Shown: positions 48,993-56,235 of the stretch, piece by piece | Position numbering within the stretch: the first letter of the stretch is position 1 | How the letters are laid out: each line of letters starts with the position of its first letter | Source of the DNA: Cytophagaceae bacterium | Lineage (GTDB): Bacteria; Bacteroidota; Bacteroidia; Cytophagales; Cytophagaceae | Assembly: GCA_025455005.1 (NCBI GenBank) | Contig: JALONH010000001.1 | Coordinates: forward strand, 62,001 to 126,000 | Reading direction: 5' to 3' | Length of the DNA: 64,000 nt | Program-made: the position numbers and the translations under genes | Notes under the pieces: model-generated | The model's database searches: none | What the model saw: the letters and a program-made list of their open reading frames with translations, nothing else | Told to the model about the DNA's origin: nothing

Positions 48993-49721
48993 TTAAATAC
49001 TTACTTTTTCGACAATAGGAAACATCCAACCTTCCGGGATGTTGGCTAAAGCGTTTTTTAATTGAGCATCCCAATAAGTAGAGATATCGGACATGTCTTT
49101 TTTCTCGAATCGATGTTCTACTACTTGTTTGCTGTCTTTATAATAAACCAAGACATCTAAAGGGAAATCAACATCATTAGCCGATACACGGGTTGAATCG
49201 AACGATAAAAAACCGGCTTTAAGAGCATTTTGGATGGAAGTTTTATAATTCACCGTTCTATTAAGAATGGGCTTACCATAACCGCTATTTCCTATAATCA
49301 TAAAGGGAGACGTTTCAGTGAGTTCGATCCAATTGCCTTCCGGATAGAGTAAAAACATTTTGGGTTCATCATCGTCTCGTAATTGACCGCCAACTAAAGT
49401 ATACAGATTAAAAAACAATCCGGAATCCGCAAGGGCTTGTCGATCCTCCTGCGCCACTCTACGCAGTTGGTCACCCAATGCATTCACAGCTTTATACATT
49501 TTATTTAGCGTATGCTGATCTTCGTCTAACGTTTCTTTAAAATACGTTAATGCTTTATCCCGAACGGAACGTAAACCACTGGTCATTAAAAACAAGAGTC
49601 CATTTTCACTTTGGTGAACAAACATTTTTTTAGCGGTAGTAGTGTCCGTACCGGAAGTGATGCGTGTGTCGGCTATAGCCAATAAGCCCGTTTCTAATTT
49701 AACCCCTAAACAATAGGTCAT
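48993..49721 (-). CDS. Anbu-type proteasome homologue (ancestral beta subunit)
   Basis: 242 residues. The start MTYCLGVKLETGLLAIADTR is diagnostic of Anbu: after removal of Met, Thr2 becomes the N-terminal nucleophile of the Ntn-hydrolase fold, with Lys and Asp of the active site following. Later blocks (FLMTSGLRSVRDKALTYF; PFMIIGNSGYGKPILNR) fit the family. Anbu forms large open-ring or helical assemblies in the cytoplasm and its peptidase activity is weak or unknown. It is the fourth gene of the ATP-grasp / alpha-E / transglutaminase / Anbu cluster, the classic context of this family. A 63-base gap separates it from the transglutaminase gene. Confidence 0.93.
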   Translation of the reverse strand: MTYCLGVKLETGLLAIADTRITSGTDTTTAKKMFVHQSENGLLFLMTSGLRSVRDKALTYFKETLDEDQHTLNKMYKAVNALGDQLRRVAQEDRQALADSGLFFNLYTLVGGQLRDDDEPKMFLLYPEGNWIELTETSPFMIIGNSGYGKPILNRTVNYKTSIQNALKAGFLSFDSTRVSANDVDFPLDVLVYYKDSKQVVEHRFEKKDMSDISTYWDAQLKNALANIPEGWMFPIVEKVSI

Positions 49722-49784
49722 AAGTATATACAGTAAATAGTTGGTAAAAATACGGATTTTTCAGGGATTCTCCATTCACCCTAT

Positions 49785-50633
49785 TTATTGAATGGTTATA
49801 GTTACGTTATGTTCTGTTTTTTGGTCTAAACTATTCGTTTTGATCACTCCTTTTAAAGGAGCACAATCTCTATAATCCACTCCATGTGCCACTTTTATAT
49901 AATTAATATCTGTTTTACACCGATTGGCAGCATCATAACCTACCCAACCATATCCAGGTATCAATGCTTCTAACCAAGCATGCATGGATTCGTCGTCGTG
50001 GTTCCCATGTGGATTATTTAAATAACCGGAAACATATCGAGCCGGAATTCCATTATATCGACACATGGCTAAAAACACATGGGTAAAATCTTGGCACACG
50101 CCCCCTTTAATATCTAAAACCTGATCGGCAGTGGTTTGAACGGTTGTGACCCCTTTTTGGTATTGAACTAAATCTTGGATATGGTCCATGAGTTCATGAA
50201 TAAAAGTAGAAATCGGCATCCCCTTTTCTTTTATCGGGATTAAGGAACGATGCCCATTAGTAATATTGGTATAGGTGGTTTTAGTTAAATACAAGTGATG
50301 ATCCAATTGAAAATCGGGTTGACTTAACATGTCATCTTCATCCGGCGATGCCGTTAGTTTTGTATGATTACTAATGGCATTTCGTTTACGTACTTTAATC
50401 TTTACTGAAAAATCTAAAGCATCAAATTTTTTATCGGTGCGTAATCGGGTAACATCAAATCCGTATACGTTTTTAAACTGAAACGCTTGTTCTTCCAACG
50501 AGTTGGAAAATTCAGTGGCGGTTACCACTTGAGAGTCGTCGTTACAAGGCAACACCATGAAATCGAAAATCCCTTCCGTCACTACTTCCGGATAGTGATT
50601 TTGAGCTTGATACGTGATTACATACTCATTCAT
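49785..50633 (-). CDS. Transglutaminase-like cysteine peptidase of the Anbu cluster
   Basis: 282 residues, no signal peptide. The N-terminal beta domain (1-120) is the one found in bacterial transglutaminase-like proteins. The papain-fold core shows Cys180 (GGVCQDF), His218 (SMHAW) and Asp234 (YDAANRC), an intact triad. Such proteins in this cluster are predicted to be cytoplasmic amidases or peptidases that act on the ligase product of the ATP-grasp/alpha-E pair. It lies 17 bases after the alpha-E gene. The reaction is not established. Confidence 0.92.
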   Translation of the reverse strand: MNEYVITYQAQNHYPEVVTEGIFDFMVLPCNDDSQVVTATEFSNSLEEQAFQFKNVYGFDVTRLRTDKKFDALDFSVKIKVRKRNAISNHTKLTASPDEDDMLSQPDFQLDHHLYLTKTTYTNITNGHRSLIPIKEKGMPISTFIHELMDHIQDLVQYQKGVTTVQTTADQVLDIKGGVCQDFTHVFLAMCRYNGIPARYVSGYLNNPHGNHDDESMHAWLEALIPGYGWVGYDAANRCKTDINYIKVAHGVDYRDCAPLKGVIKTNSLDQKTEHNVTITIQ

Positions 50634-50650
50634 ACGAAGTTGAATTTAGG

Positions 50651-51598
50651 TTAATAGGTCAAGTATTTTTTTTCTAATAAATCAGAAAGTTTATACAATT
50701 GATTTAAACATTCATAGTAGAAGGCTAAAGGGTTTTTCGCCACCTCTTCAATTGTAGTAAACGATAGGGTAGCTAACATTTTGTTGGCTTGAAATTCTAA
50801 AGAACCTTCTTTAACATTTTTATCATCACTGATAAAATCAATACAATCTTTTATTTGTTGCAAGTTATAAACGATGGATTTTGGACATTGAGCATTCAGG
50901 GTTAGAAATGCCAGTGTATAGGTAGCATTTGGGACATCTTTGTAAAATATTTTGCTCATATCATACGTTTCCGTGCTCTTCAAAAGGTTGACAATTTCAA
51001 AGAGTTGCAATGTTGAAGCCCAGTGATTATTAGGAATTCGATTTAAGTCCATGAGTTTGGTAACAATCATCCGCATGATTTGAACCGCGCGTTCGATGTG
51101 TTGCCCCAAATGAATAATCGACCATGTTTCATCGCGCAACAGAGATTGATCGATATAACCATTTACAATAGAACTGTATTGAAGAATGCGGTGGGTGTAT
51201 TCATACATTCCTTGTTCAGCAATATCCTCTGCTTGAATCGAATTGGTGTAATGATAATAGGTATTAATGGTTTCCCATAATTCAGTGGAGATGGAATCAC
51301 GTGCACCACGGGCATTTTCCCGCGCACGGGAGATAGAATATCGTACCGAAATAGGATTTAAATCGTCTAAGCCTATGAATTTTACCACTTGTGTTTCTTC
51401 CAATTCATCGTGCTTGTTGACATAATCTGTATATGCTCCGGCCATTTGCAAGACAGATTCTAACACACTTTCCCTTTTGATGCTCAGCGGAGCATCGATA
51501 CTGGAAAAGTAATGTACTTGAGCATACCGCGTGATGTGTTCGGAGCGTTCTAGATAACGCGCCATCCAAAATAAGTTATTGGCAATTCTTGCTAACAT
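50651..51598 (-). CDS. Alpha-E domain protein (DUF403)
   Basis: 315 residues, all-helical, no membrane segment. The family start is plain: MLARIANNLFWMARYLERSEH, followed by ARENARGARDSISTELWETINTYY and the conserved HLGQHIERAVQIMRMIVTKL. Alpha-E proteins occur next to circularly permuted ATP-grasp ligases and Anbu or transglutaminase genes; genome analyses (Iyer and colleagues) predict a role in making small peptides or peptide tags. The exact function is unknown. It is 20 bases downstream of the ATP-grasp gene and 17 bases before the transglutaminase gene. Confidence 0.93.
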   Translation of the reverse strand: MLARIANNLFWMARYLERSEHITRYAQVHYFSSIDAPLSIKRESVLESVLQMAGAYTDYVNKHDELEETQVVKFIGLDDLNPISVRYSISRARENARGARDSISTELWETINTYYHYTNSIQAEDIAEQGMYEYTHRILQYSSIVNGYIDQSLLRDETWSIIHLGQHIERAVQIMRMIVTKLMDLNRIPNNHWASTLQLFEIVNLLKSTETYDMSKIFYKDVPNATYTLAFLTLNAQCPKSIVYNLQQIKDCIDFISDDKNVKEGSLEFQANKMLATLSFTTIEEVAKNPLAFYYECLNQLYKLSDLLEKKYLTY

Positions 51599-51618
51599 AA
51601 TAATTTACCTGTATCCTT

Positions 51619-53097
51619 CTATTCGTGCTCTAATACCCAAGTATCCTTAGAGCCGCCTCCTTGAGAGGAATTAACGATTAAATTTCCTTTTGTAAGTGCA
51701 ACACGTGTCAAGCCGCCTTCTAATACATAGGTATTATCCTTGCCCATTAAGGCAAATGCGCGCAAGTCGATATGGCGAGGGTCGTAGCTGTTGTCGTTAT
51801 CGATAAAGGTAGATTGAACAGACAATGACATAATAGGTTGTGCAATGTATTTTCTAGGATTATCTAATATGAGTTTTTTATACTCTTCTATTTCTGCTTT
51901 AGTTTTCCTATTTCCTATAAACACTCCATACCCTCCCGATTCGTCTACCGGTTTCACCACCAATTCGTGCATGTGTTCTAAAACGTACTGTAGTTCATCT
52001 GCTCGTTCGCAGCGATAGGTAGGCACATTGAGTAAAATGGGGTCTTCGTCCAAGTAGTATTTAATAATTTCCGGAACGTACGTGTAAACGGCTTTGTCGT
52101 CTGCCACACCCGTGCCCGGCGCATTAATCAAGGTGACATTTCCGGCTCGGTAAGCACCCATAATTCCCGGTATACCTAATACAGACTCCGGACGAAAGAC
52201 AAGTGGATCTAAAAAGTCGTCGTCAATTCTTCTATAAATTACATCAACTCGTTTAGGACCGTGTATCGTTTTCATATAGACAAAGTTTTTGTCTACAAAC
52301 AAATCGCGTCCCTCTACTAAAGTTAATCCCATTACTTGAGCTAAGAAAGAGTGTTCAAAGTACGCCGAGTTATAAATCCCCGGAGTAAGCACAACACAAT
52401 TGGGTTTGTCAACCCCTTTGGGGGCTACCGATAAAATGGTAGACAAAAGTTTTTCCGGGTATTGAGTGACCGTCTTTACATGGTATTTGCTAAAGGCATG
52501 GTGCAACACTTTTTTCATGATGTCCCGATTAGATAAAACATAGGAGACACCGGAAGGACATCGAAGATTGTCTTCCAATACGTAATAACGTCCATCCGAA
52601 TGTTTAATGATATCTGTACCGGTCACATGAATGTAGACATTGGCCGGTGGTGTCAGGCCGATCATTTCTCGGTTATAAAAGGCAGATGAAAAAATTAAAT
52701 CTGCCGGTACTACTTTATCTCGAATAATTTTTTTGTCGTGGTATAAATCATATAAAAATAAGTTGATAGCATGGTTTCGTTGTATGATACCTTTTTCAAT
52801 AATTTCCCACTCTTTAGACGGTATTATTCGGGGCAAAAGATCGAAAGGAAAGATGCGCTCTACACCTTTGGATTTATCCGAATAGACATTAAAGGTTACC
52901 CCTTGGTTGAAAAAAGTTATCTTAGCTAATTCATCCCATTGTCGAAATTCTTCCACTTCTACTTCTTGAAACAGGGGAATTAATTTACGGTAGTGGGGAC
53001 GTAACTTACCATTGGTGTCCCAGATCTCATCAAAAAAACCTTCTCCTAATGGGACATGTTCCACTATCCGCTTCATTAAGGTTTTATCTACTGCCAT
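51619..53097 (-). CDS. Circularly permuted ATP-grasp ligase (type 2)
   Basis: 492 residues. Family blocks include SDKSKGVERIFPFDLLPRII, the YVLEDNLRCPSGVSYVLSNR stretch (about 172-191), NAPGTGVADDKAVYTYVPEI, and VVKPVDESGGYGVFIG, which carries the ATP-grasp Lys and glycine loop in the permuted order; RHIDLRAFALMG and SSQGGGSKDTWVLEHE close it. It should activate a carboxylate with ATP and join it to an amine. Head of the cluster ATP-grasp / alpha-E / transglutaminase / Anbu, with a likely promoter 27 bases upstream. Cytoplasmic. Confidence 0.93.
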   Translation of the reverse strand: MAVDKTLMKRIVEHVPLGEGFFDEIWDTNGKLRPHYRKLIPLFQEVEVEEFRQWDELAKITFFNQGVTFNVYSDKSKGVERIFPFDLLPRIIPSKEWEIIEKGIIQRNHAINLFLYDLYHDKKIIRDKVVPADLIFSSAFYNREMIGLTPPANVYIHVTGTDIIKHSDGRYYVLEDNLRCPSGVSYVLSNRDIMKKVLHHAFSKYHVKTVTQYPEKLLSTILSVAPKGVDKPNCVVLTPGIYNSAYFEHSFLAQVMGLTLVEGRDLFVDKNFVYMKTIHGPKRVDVIYRRIDDDFLDPLVFRPESVLGIPGIMGAYRAGNVTLINAPGTGVADDKAVYTYVPEIIKYYLDEDPILLNVPTYRCERADELQYVLEHMHELVVKPVDESGGYGVFIGNRKTKAEIEEYKKLILDNPRKYIAQPIMSLSVQSTFIDNDNSYDPRHIDLRAFALMGKDNTYVLEGGLTRVALTKGNLIVNSSQGGGSKDTWVLEHE

Positions 53098-53513: not shown

Positions 53514-55007
53514 ATGGAATATGATGTTTGTGTGTTGGGAGGTGGCCCTGCCGGTTATGCCGCTGCCATGCGCGCCTTAGATTTAAAAAAGAAGGTAATA
53601 TTAATAGAACGTAATAAAGTAGGAGGTGCCGGTTTATACAACGGGGCACTTTCATCTAAAACGTTTTGGGAACTATCGAAGGATATTCTATCCACCCGTA
53701 AACGCTTACAGCACTATTCTCCCGACCAACACATACGAGTAGAATTCAAAGAAATTTTACGACAAGTTCGGGAAGGAATTGCACAACGTCGTTTCCACTT
53801 AGAAGGGCAATTAGAAACTTTACAAAATTTAAAAGATAATTCTATTCGTTTTGTAAAAGGTTCTGGAAAAATTCTTTCCTCTCAAGAGGTTGAAATAACC
53901 CTCGCAGATAGTACGACGGAGGTCATCCGTACACAAAACATTATCATAGCGACCGGTAGTAGTCCTAGAAAATTAGCCTCTATTCCCATCGACGAACGCA
54001 TCATTGTTACCAGCGACGGAGTAGAGAGTTTTGATCATTTTCCCAGAAGTATAGTAATCTTAGGAGCTGGTGTGATAGGTTGTGAGTGGGCGACCATTTT
54101 TTCAAATTTCGGCTATACGAAAGTCAATATAATTGATAAAGCGGATCGTATTTTACCGTTTGAAGATGATGATATCATTGAAACAGTAGAGGCTAACATG
54201 CAACGTCAAGGTATAACCATTCACAAAAATTCTACTTTAGTAAAAATGGATATCGTAGACGGGGAAGTAGAGTATGTTTTGGAATATACAGATGGGAGAC
54301 GGGAAATCCACCGCGTAGAAAAGGCCTTAGTCTCGATTGGGCGTGTACCTAACTCATCGGGTATTGGTTTAGAAAATGTAGGGCTATCGGTTTTACCTAA
54401 TGGCCAAATTGCAAATAACGACGGACAAACGAGCGTTTCGAATATATACGTAGTAGGGGACTTGTCTACCGATGTAGCCTTGGTTAATGTAGCGGAATTG
54501 GAAGGCCGACATGTTGTTGAAAAAATGTACGGTTTAACACATACACCCCTTGTGTATAATAACGTTTCTACGATCATGTTCGTCCAACCGGAAGTAGCGG
54601 GCGTGGGGATGAATGAGAAGCGAGCATTGAAAGAAAAGAAATCGTATAAATGTGTAAAGATTCGATACGATATGATTCCCAGAGCGATTGCCATGCGGAA
54701 TAATAATGGATTTTTTAAAATATTAGTTACCAATGACGATGCGATGACCATATTGGGCATGCGCGCAGTCGGTGTTCATGCCTCTAGTGCCATTCAAGCG
54801 GTTGCTTTATTAATTTCCATGAATAAAGGTGTAGAAGAGTTGGCCGACATGATTCATCCCCATCCATCTATAATCGAAGGAATTCAAGAATGTATTCGGA
54901 TGTTATTAGGCAAGTCCGTCCTTAAACCGGAAGTGTTTAAAGGAATGTTACAATGTAAATCCTGTGACGAAAACGGCTGTATCAACGAAATCGTTTACCT
55001 TCGTTAA
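53514..55007 (+). CDS. Lipoamide-dehydrogenase-like flavoprotein lacking the active-site cysteines
   Basis: 497 residues, class I pyridine-nucleotide-disulfide oxidoreductase fold: FAD site GGGPAGYAAA (9-18), NAD(P) site GAGVIGCEWA, second FAD block YVVGDL, and the C-terminal dimerisation domain with the His-Glu pair (His450, Glu455 in HPHPSIIE). At the redox site, where Lpd has GGTCLNxGCIPSK, this protein reads GGAGLYNGALSSK (37-49): both Cys are replaced, by Gly40 and Ala45. The C-terminal tail adds CKSCDENGC (Cys481, 484, 489). So it cannot work as lipoamide dehydrogenase; a transhydrogenase-like or tail-dependent reductase is possible. A 62-residue membrane protein gene follows after four bases. 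Confidence 0.88.
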   Translation: MEYDVCVLGGGPAGYAAAMRALDLKKKVILIERNKVGGAGLYNGALSSKTFWELSKDILSTRKRLQHYSPDQHIRVEFKEILRQVREGIAQRRFHLEGQLETLQNLKDNSIRFVKGSGKILSSQEVEITLADSTTEVIRTQNIIIATGSSPRKLASIPIDERIIVTSDGVESFDHFPRSIVILGAGVIGCEWATIFSNFGYTKVNIIDKADRILPFEDDDIIETVEANMQRQGITIHKNSTLVKMDIVDGEVEYVLEYTDGRREIHRVEKALVSIGRVPNSSGIGLENVGLSVLPNGQIANNDGQTSVSNIYVVGDLSTDVALVNVAELEGRHVVEKMYGLTHTPLVYNNVSTIMFVQPEVAGVGMNEKRALKEKKSYKCVKIRYDMIPRAIAMRNNNGFFKILVTNDDAMTILGMRAVGVHASSAIQAVALLISMNKGVEELADMIHPHPSIIEGIQECIRMLLGKSVLKPEVFKGMLQCKSCDENGCINEIVYLR

Positions 55008-55011
55008 GCGT

Positions 55012-55200
55012 ATGTTTCGTGTTCGAGATATTAATATTTTCACCGGAATCGTTCTGTGTGCCATTCTATTTACTCGTATTTCTATGTCAAAGCGACCTGA
55101 ATTGGAACCCATGACCCGTTCCTTAAATTTTCTCATAGTGGTCACCTTTGTTGTTTTGGGTGGGGTAAACCTATGGGCGTTTAAAAATAGAAAAAAGTAA
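55012..55200 (+). CDS. Small two-helix membrane protein, unknown function
   Basis: 62 residues from the ATG at 55012; longer forms that begin at a GTG inside the upstream gene are unlikely. Two helices (about 8-25, and 37-57) flank a short loop with SMSKRPELEP; the tail is basic (FKNRKK). It begins four bases after the stop of the Lpd-like gene, so it is probably co-translated with it, and may be a membrane partner. I do not recognise the family. No terminator is visible before the peroxiredoxin gene 87 bases downstream. Confidence 0.68.
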   Translation: MFRVRDINIFTGIVLCAILFTRISMSKRPELEPMTRSLNFLIVVTFVVLGGVNLWAFKNRKK

Positions 55201-55287: not shown

Positions 55288-55923
55288 ATGAGTTTACGAT
55301 TAGGCGATATCGCACCGGACTTCACAGCAGAAACGACAGAAGGCCGAATACAATTTCACTCTTGGTTAGGCGAGAGTTGGGGAGTATTATTCTCTCATCC
55401 GGCAGATTACACTCCGGTTTGTACGACAGAACTCGGCGTTACGGCTAAGCTCTCCGGTGAGTTTAAAAAAAGAAATGTTAAAGTCATAGCGGTAAGTGTG
55501 GATGATTTACCTTCCCACCAAGGTTGGGTGAAAGACATCAATGAAACCCAACAGTGTGAGGTGAACTTTCCTATCATTGCGGATGCAGATAAACAAGTAG
55601 CGACACTGTATGATATGATTCATCCTAATGCCAGTGATAAATTTACAGTTCGTTCTGTTTTTGTTATAGGTCCGGATAAAAAAATAAAATTGACCATCAC
55701 TTACCCGGCGTCAACGGGAAGAAATTTTGATGAGTTACTTCGAGTGATTGACTCTTTACAGTTAACGGCTAATTACAGCGTAGCTACTCCGGCTAATTGG
55801 AAAGATGGACAAGACGTAGTGATAGCTCCTGCAATTAAGGACGAAGATATTCCTCAAAAATTCCCTAAAGGTCATACGCGTATTAAGCCCTATTTACGTA
55901 CTACACCACAACCGAATAAATAA
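55288..55923 (+). CDS. 1-Cys peroxiredoxin (Prx6 type)
   Basis: 211 residues. The peroxidatic Cys is in SHPADYTPVCTTELG (PxxxT/C motif intact, Cys about 47); the long C-terminal arm (about 165-211) with TPANWKDGQDVVIAP is typical of the Prx6/1-Cys group; no resolving Cys is seen. It reduces hydrogen peroxide and alkyl hydroperoxides in the cytoplasm and needs an outside reductant. The Lpd-like flavoprotein with its C-terminal cysteines is two genes upstream on the same strand, so a redox link is conceivable, but only by position. It ends at a strong terminator. Confidence 0.95.
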   Translation: MSLRLGDIAPDFTAETTEGRIQFHSWLGESWGVLFSHPADYTPVCTTELGVTAKLSGEFKKRNVKVIAVSVDDLPSHQGWVKDINETQQCEVNFPIIADADKQVATLYDMIHPNASDKFTVRSVFVIGPDKKIKLTITYPASTGRNFDELLRVIDSLQLTANYSVATPANWKDGQDVVIAPAIKDEDIPQKFPKGHTRIKPYLRTTPQPNK

Positions 55924-55952
55924 AAAAAAGCGGAAGTGATTCCGCTTTTTTT
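55923..55952. terminator. Bidirectional terminator after the peroxiredoxin gene
   Basis: A7 then GCGGAA pairs with TTCCGC then T7 around GTGA. It begins in the peroxiredoxin stop and also ends the leftward TIGR03643 gene, whose stop it touches. Confidence 0.92.
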
Positions 55953-56235
55953 ATCGTTTACTAATTTTATTTCCGGAAATCGTTCGTTGCCGGTCACATT
56001 TAAATCGGTGGGTATCATTTCCGGATTTTTGTTCGTGTTTTGTTTTCCTTCCTTTCATACGCTCTCTCCATAAATCAAAACTACTTCGTTTCATATAATG
56101 TCGCATCAGTTGTATGACCGTTTGCTCACTGATGTTGAATTGCCGACCAATAGCGTCGAACGGGGTGCGATCTTCCCAGGCCATTTCAATGATTCGATCG
56201 ATATCGCCATCTGATAAATTATCCCATGCTTTCAT
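55951..56235 (-). CDS. TIGR03643-family (DUF2805) helix-turn-helix-like protein
   Basis: 94 residues. The family core is MAWEDRTPFDAIGRQFNISEQTVIQLMRHYMKRSSFDLWRERMKGRKTKH at about 17-66: a helix-turn-helix-like element (FDAIGRQFNISEQTVIQLMR) and a conserved basic stretch. The rest is rich in Lys, Arg and His (pI clearly high), so it probably binds nucleic acid. No experimental role is known to me. It lies downstream of the histidine kinase on the same strand, 32 bases past the stop the kinase would have if its frameshift were closed. Confidence 0.85.
   Translation of the reverse strand: MKAWDNLSDGDIDRIIEMAWEDRTPFDAIGRQFNISEQTVIQLMRHYMKRSSFDLWRERMKGRKTKHEQKSGNDTHRFKCDRQRTISGNKISKR

Follow-up and report, generated by a model that had tools for sequence, protein, structure and literature searches.

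What role is left to the flavoprotein disulfide reductase fold once its disulfide is gone and its acid-base dyad is kept? A gene in the window (the whole 64,000-nucleotide stretch of DNA analysed here) offers a natural test of that question; Irc15p of yeast is the one worked example that we found. It encodes a flavoprotein resembling dihydrolipoyl dehydrogenase (Lpd), and it belongs to a subfamily that is well conserved but unnamed. The gene and its parts are listed below. Counts are out of the 108 members of the subfamily that were read, namely the window protein, 47 loci and 60 further loci from the class sample.

53514..55007, + strand: Lpd-like flavoprotein without the redox cysteines, 497 aa; read as an open reading frame with its stop at 55007, and matched by Pfam and NCBIfam models
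53538..53555, + strand: N-terminal FAD motif GxGxxG, residues 9-14; G9, G11 and G14 invariant in a 48-row alignment
53622..53672, + strand: former redox loop, residues 37-53 (GGAGLYNGALSSKTFWE); G40 and A45 in place of both cysteines; S48, K49, W52 and E53 invariant in 108 rows
54063..54080, + strand: NAD(P) motif GxGxxG, residues 184-189; from the sequence and alignments
54135..54140, + strand: D208-K209, where the second NAD-domain strand ends; D or E at 208 in 97/108
54456..54461, + strand: second FAD motif G315-D316; D316 in 108/108
54861..54878, + strand: His450-Glu455 dyad segment; each of the two residues in 108/108
54924..55004, + strand: C-terminal tail, residues 471-497; lacking in same-family Lpds and almost gone in 7/108
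54954..54980, + strand: tail cysteines CKSCDENGC, residues 481-489; C481 in 88/108, C484 in 35/108, C489 in 10/108

The Former Redox Site

Pfam recognises the fold over nearly the full length of the protein (Pyr_redox_2, E 1.1e-48; dimerisation domain, E 3.5e-23). The FAD and NAD(P) sites and the His450-Glu455 pair, which an earlier note on this DNA had read as kept, are all present with their motifs intact. The same note had read Gly and Ala in place of the redox CxxxxC. An alignment set the protein beside the E. coli proteins Lpd, SthA, Gor and RclA and 11 Lpds encoded by members of the host's bacterial family (11 of 14 paralogue loci). The loop G37-G38-A39-G40...G44-A45-L46-S47-S48-K49 aligns with the CxxxxC of E. 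coli Lpd, Gor and RclA and of the host's own two Lpds. The two positions are Cys/Cys in Lpd, Gor and RclA and Cys/Thr in SthA, and in the same alignment the column of the dyad His holds H450 in the flavoprotein and Tyr in SthA. The reading of G40/A45 holds well beyond the window, and the change is no accident: cysteine is at neither position in 108/108 members, versus at both in 11/11 Lpds of the same bacterial family. Position 40 is Gly in 92 members, Ala in 15 and Ser in one, and position 45 is Ala in 104 and Val in four.

The sequence that stands in place of the cysteines is itself fixed. In addition to the four loop residues listed above, G37, G38 and G44 are identical in all 108 members, as are P451 and G456 beside the two dyad residues. 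A cysteine loop swapped for a fixed sequence, with the acid-base pair retained, is what one expects of a functioning enzyme whose chemistry is different. The conserved loop is also a clear signature by which members of the subfamily can be found and assayed. The compared Lpds carry Glu where the flavoprotein has D208, and the acidic residue kept there in most members suggests NADH rather than NADPH as the donor. Outside the loop, cysteine is kept in nearly every member at C190 (107/108) and C460 (100/108), the latter ten residues past the dyad His. We considered these as a new redox pair and set the idea aside; the two are distant in the sequence and belong to separate domains, and SthA also has Cys190.

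Distribution of the Cysteine-Free Subfamily

The flavoprotein gene is single-copy in the host genome, where a search also gave two partial matches and two full-length relatives that are 29% identical. The two full-length relatives are ordinary CxxxxC Lpds, and the flavoprotein thus coexists with true Lpds. It is found in 17 of the 19 genomes of the host's bacterial family, counting the host; the other 16 copies are at 58-75% identity, and the gene is absent from two of the 19 genomes searched (G013 and G014). A profile of own-family members at a strict threshold matched 44/291 genomes in the order sample and 8/395 in the phylum sample, four of these eight outside the class. With a 48-row profile, 79/295 genomes of the class sample matched, spread over 43 of 156 genera. 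Four of these 79 were in the earlier set, and of the other 75, 60 were read; the 15 class matches outside the 108 are G732, G871, G712, G730, G868, G844, G820, G768, G889, G909, G828, G678, G874, G910 and G869. One copy that was read (L203, in G890) has an in-frame stop and, being taken from a start inside the gene, has a shortened N-terminus. The 108 members are 39-75% identical to the window protein.

The earlier note had proposed a distinct subfamily, and the trees agree. In one of 63 rows with 48 members, and in another of 39 rows with 29 of the 108, the subfamily forms one side of a 100/100 branch, apart from Lpd, SthA, Gor and RclA. This clade, together with the loop and dyad fixed across 108 members, gives the proposal its substance. 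The point where the subfamily attaches relative to Lpd or SthA is not fixed by the trees because the reference branches are very long.

Outside the phylum the analysis covered plasmids, viral contigs and one narrow scan of genome contigs. The best 5000 plasmid records were all below 60% identity, and the 40 rows listed ran from 29.5 to 33.3%, 38 of them over genes annotated lpdA. Among viral contigs, 18 stretches fit a pattern, none of them encoding a relative. A scan of genome contigs with six short peptides gave one 36-residue match, which lies in a 305-aa protein that, judged by eye, looks like a thioredoxin reductase and does not belong to the subfamily.

Neighbouring Genes

The genes on either side of the flavoprotein gene are as follows.

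48993-53097, - strand: compact cluster, divergent from the flavoprotein gene, of 242-aa, 282-aa and 315-aa proteins and a circularly permuted ATP-grasp protein (PF14403)
55012..55200, + strand: 62-aa protein with two hydrophobic stretches, starting 4 bases past the flavoprotein stop
55288..55923, + strand: 1-Cys-type peroxiredoxin, 211 aa; PF00578 and PF10417; NF009668 at 214.7 bits, cut-off 211
55951-56235, - strand: DUF2805 / TIGR03643 small protein, just past the peroxiredoxin

The divergent cluster looks like an Anbu (ancestral proteasome-like) operon, and some of its genes have counterparts near the flavoprotein gene in L070, L071 and L112. The small membrane protein described earlier as four bases on is there, with a possible start at 55012, 62 residues and two hydrophobic stretches; there is also a longer frame over it, with a GTG start at 54964. 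It has no Pfam or NCBIfam match. The 68-69 aa protein found in a like position in L070-L072 has no detectable similarity to it (best E 0.98).

Neighbours were counted within three genes on either side at the 108 loci, 17 of them from the host's own bacterial family and 15 of those with more than 1.9 kb of downstream sequence. The link to the 1-Cys peroxiredoxin that the earlier note saw following the flavoprotein is real in the window's own bacterial family, in 10/15 loci; elsewhere it is rare, with peroxiredoxins in 2/91 loci and those of other kinds. A protein of the peroxiredoxin cluster is thus near the flavoprotein gene in 12/108 loci, the ten in the own family being downstream on the same strand. 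Cys45 of the window's peroxiredoxin is the only cysteine common to the neighbours' copies and the sole one in L070-L074; an extra cysteine is found in the window (at 90) and also in L076, L077, L114 and L115. The adjacent peroxiredoxin was rejected as the general partner of the subfamily, 10 of its 12 occurrences being in the window's own bacterial family.

Other lineages have other neighbours. A di-haem cytochrome c peroxidase (CCP_MauG) is present in 14/108 loci (L158, L159, L163, L165, L179, L184, L188-L191 and L193-L196), always as the next gene downstream and on the opposite strand. An OsmC protein is nearby in 5/108 loci. PntA, a subunit of the proton-translocating membrane transhydrogenase PntAB, is also nearby in 5/108; the PntAB genes are downstream on the same strand in L147, L152, L156 and L161 and convergent in L148, and these five genomes represent four families. 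A CxxCxxCC protein (PF03692) recurs within eight genes in nine loci, L156 among them, and in most cases it lies upstream. In one other bacterial family the flavoprotein gene is near genes for a nitroreductase and for an aromatic amino acid hydroxylase, in a stretch that also holds what are presumably histidine biosynthesis genes. The hydroxylase (PF00351), which would imply a part in biopterin recycling, was considered as a partner, being within eight genes in eight loci, six of them from one family. It was dropped because the presumed histidine biosynthesis genes share the stretch, the gene order varies and other loci are without the hydroxylase. No neighbour is common to the whole subfamily among the 108 loci. 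As a weak hint, the peroxiredoxin, OsmC, di-haem peroxidase and PntAB neighbours point to redox balance or peroxide handling, and they vary by lineage.

Proposed Function and Alternatives

With no dithiol, the reduced flavin must hand its electrons on directly, and three precedents bear on where they may go. Irc15p is an NADH diaphorase: NADH reduces it at 250 per s, its potential is -313 mV, it turns over well with ferricyanide, DCPIP, MTT and menadione, and it makes H2O2. It gave no turnover with cystine, glutathione or lipoamide, and the disulfides tested were all left unreduced, according to the part of PMC6296175 used here. The mycobacterial LpdA, in which one cysteine is missing along with the dyad, uses quinones as acceptors but does not reduce disulfides (same part of PMC6296175). 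In SthA C45A, where the remaining loop cysteine is removed, 37% of the NADH electrons end in H2O2, compared with 2% reacting with oxygen in the wild type (PMC9460512, in the part consulted). On these precedents we favour an NADH flavoenzyme with a quinone-like or other small non-disulfide acceptor. Our confidence is evenly divided as to whether the protein is an NADH-dependent FAD enzyme of this kind, whose flavin would hand electrons straight to some small molecule; a quinone-like compound is our best guess. The wider suggestion in the earlier note, of an NAD(P)H function other than disulfide reduction, is likely to be right.

The reaction may be pictured as follows. The protein would be an FAD enzyme, probably dimeric, with the disulfide reductase fold and the dithiol step dropped. 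NAD(P)H, probably NADH, would reduce the FAD on its usual face. On the other face of the flavin, Gly/Ala (or Ala/Ala) would fill the place of the cysteines, and a putative cavity there would make room for the acceptor. The acceptor would then take electrons straight from the flavin, with His450-Glu455 of the partner subunit acting as acid/base. Oxygen would serve as a side acceptor, giving H2O2.

Some points weigh against an NADH enzyme of this type. The authors of the Irc15p study suggest that the dyad may mean a retained reaction resembling thiol exchange (PMC6296175, in the part used), and dyad retention in the subfamily could likewise be a sign of continued thiol-type catalysis. The neighbouring genes do not point to any one acceptor, and PntAB in five loci fits a transhydrogenase at least as well. 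Irc15p itself, which is 40% identical to yeast Lpd1p (PMC6296175, in part), serves as an analogue and not an established orthologue. With rather less than even confidence, we suppose that this is a widespread Bacteroidota family with a reaction of its own, in which a thiol-free Lpd fold is kept and the dyad and the S48-K49-W52-E53 loop may handle a specific acceptor, not a disulfide, with a link to NAD(P)H balance or to defence against peroxide.

A second type of soluble NADH/NADP+ transhydrogenase, in which FAD takes hydride from one nucleotide and gives it to the other, would need no cysteine at all. The SthA model (NF003585) is the second-best NCBIfam match at 278 bits, Cys190 in the motif GVIGCE is common to SthA and missing from the compared Lpds, and the pntA/pntB neighbours described above are in keeping with such a role. 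We still consider it unlikely. The score is far under the SthA cut-off of 465 bits, and both motifs by which the soluble transhydrogenases are defined, CxxxxT and YxxxxE (PMC9460512, in the part consulted), are absent: C at 40 or C/T at 45 is found in 0/108 members, and the dyad residue is an invariant His and not Tyr. SthA C45A also loses transhydrogenase activity about 10-fold (same part of PMC9460512).

Alternatively, the protein could be a redox sensor or a structural NAD(P)H-binding protein, for which conformation matters and not turnover. Irc15p is microtubule-associated and changes shape upon NADH-dependent H2O2 formation (PMC6296175, in the part used). The invariant His-Glu dyad and W52-E53 beside the loop (108/108) point instead to selected chemistry, and we think a sensor quite improbable.

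The earlier note had proposed that the tail cysteines take over from the lost pair. The tail extends about 27 residues beyond the end of the same-family Lpds, and the stretch CKSCDENGC reported there is present in the window protein, with cysteines at 481, 484 and 489. In such a relay C481 and C484, and sometimes C489, would stand in for the lost dithiol and carry electrons from FAD to a partner, for instance the 1-Cys peroxiredoxin encoded next to it. C481 is present in most members, 85/108 have a tail of 20-34 residues counted from residue 468, and all ten own-family loci with a downstream peroxiredoxin have C481-x-x-C484. The spacing from the dyad His to the tail cysteines, 31-39 residues, is also of the order found in mammalian thioredoxin reductase. 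Against this, the tail cluster is a local feature. The 481/484 pair, which would have to be conserved in a protein of the high-Mr thioredoxin reductase/MerA type, is present in 31/108 members and missing from 77/108, and all three cysteines are present in 10/108. Thirteen of the 108 have no tail cysteine at all and retain the cysteine-free loop and dyad, and in family f111 (seven rows, L197-L203) only about ten residues follow from position 468 on while loop and dyad persist. Homologues of just this kind were what the earlier note had said would refute the relay. L079, L081, L084, L085, L087-L089 and L097 have the pair and no peroxiredoxin within three genes. We know of no direct route from flavin to a tail without loop cysteines. 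A single-sequence structure model of the window protein had a mean pLDDT of 34, too low for the geometry of C481 and FAD. As a mechanism for the whole subfamily the tail relay is rejected because its cysteines are poorly conserved across the 108 members, and we hold out little hope for it even as a candidate; a tail role restricted to the window's lineage, where the related species are not independent, is possible on the sequence.

We give practically no credence to a degenerate, non-functional Lpd copy, which for the subfamily as a whole is refuted by conservation and stop counts: both catalytic cysteines are gone and 6/79 class matches have one in-frame stop each (G732, G871, G712, G890, G910 and G869), but members at 39-75% identity from many families share the same loop and dyad, and 73/79 class and 44/44 order matches have no internal stop.

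Comparison with Known Flavoproteins

No title or abstract opening naming this cysteine-free subfamily was found in the openly licensed literature, and the group is not described in the part consulted of PMC1847454, which sets out the motif classes of the wider disulfide reductase family. Judged by its motifs or by curated cut-offs, the flavoprotein is not an Lpd, a soluble transhydrogenase or an LpdA; it falls below the curated cut-off of every NCBIfam model among the matches listed (25 of 59).

Lpd (E3) shares with the flavoprotein the whole fold, the FAD and NAD sites and the dyad, and is also the best PDB sequence match. The best NCBIfam match is likewise the Lpd model (TIGR01350), at 352.5 bits against a cut-off of 408.8, and the 47 further rows of the 48-member alignment match it with a best E of 3.1e-114. 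An automatic pipeline could therefore easily misname the flavoprotein. It differs from Lpd in the loss of CxxxxC, in the C-terminal extension and in Asn325 by the second FAD motif (105/108), where 11/11 compared Lpds have His.

High-Mr thioredoxin reductase and MerA share with some members of the subfamily a C-terminal extension with cysteines. In those enzymes the loop CxxxxC is also present and the tail cysteines define the family, neither of which is true here. SthA is alike in having lost the dithiol and in the Cys190 of its NAD motif; the flavoprotein differs in lacking the two transhydrogenase motifs and keeping the dyad His. LpdA (Rv3303c, PDB 1xdi), an NAD(P)H-quinone reductase, has a broken disulfide centre as here, but with one cysteine gone and the dyad missing (PMC6296175, in the part used), versus both cysteines gone and an invariant dyad in the subfamily. 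The match to the LpdA model (NF005883) is 261 bits against a cut-off of 479, and the presence of the dyad makes a simple enzyme of the LpdA type less likely.

The nearest characterised protein that we found in active-site layout is Irc15p of Saccharomyces cerevisiae, compared here by its published description. It is eukaryotic and microtubule-associated, and is an analogue of the flavoprotein. In both proteins the two loop cysteines are replaced (Tyr/Ala in Irc15p, Gly/Ala here), the dyad is kept and a true Lpd is encoded in the same genome.
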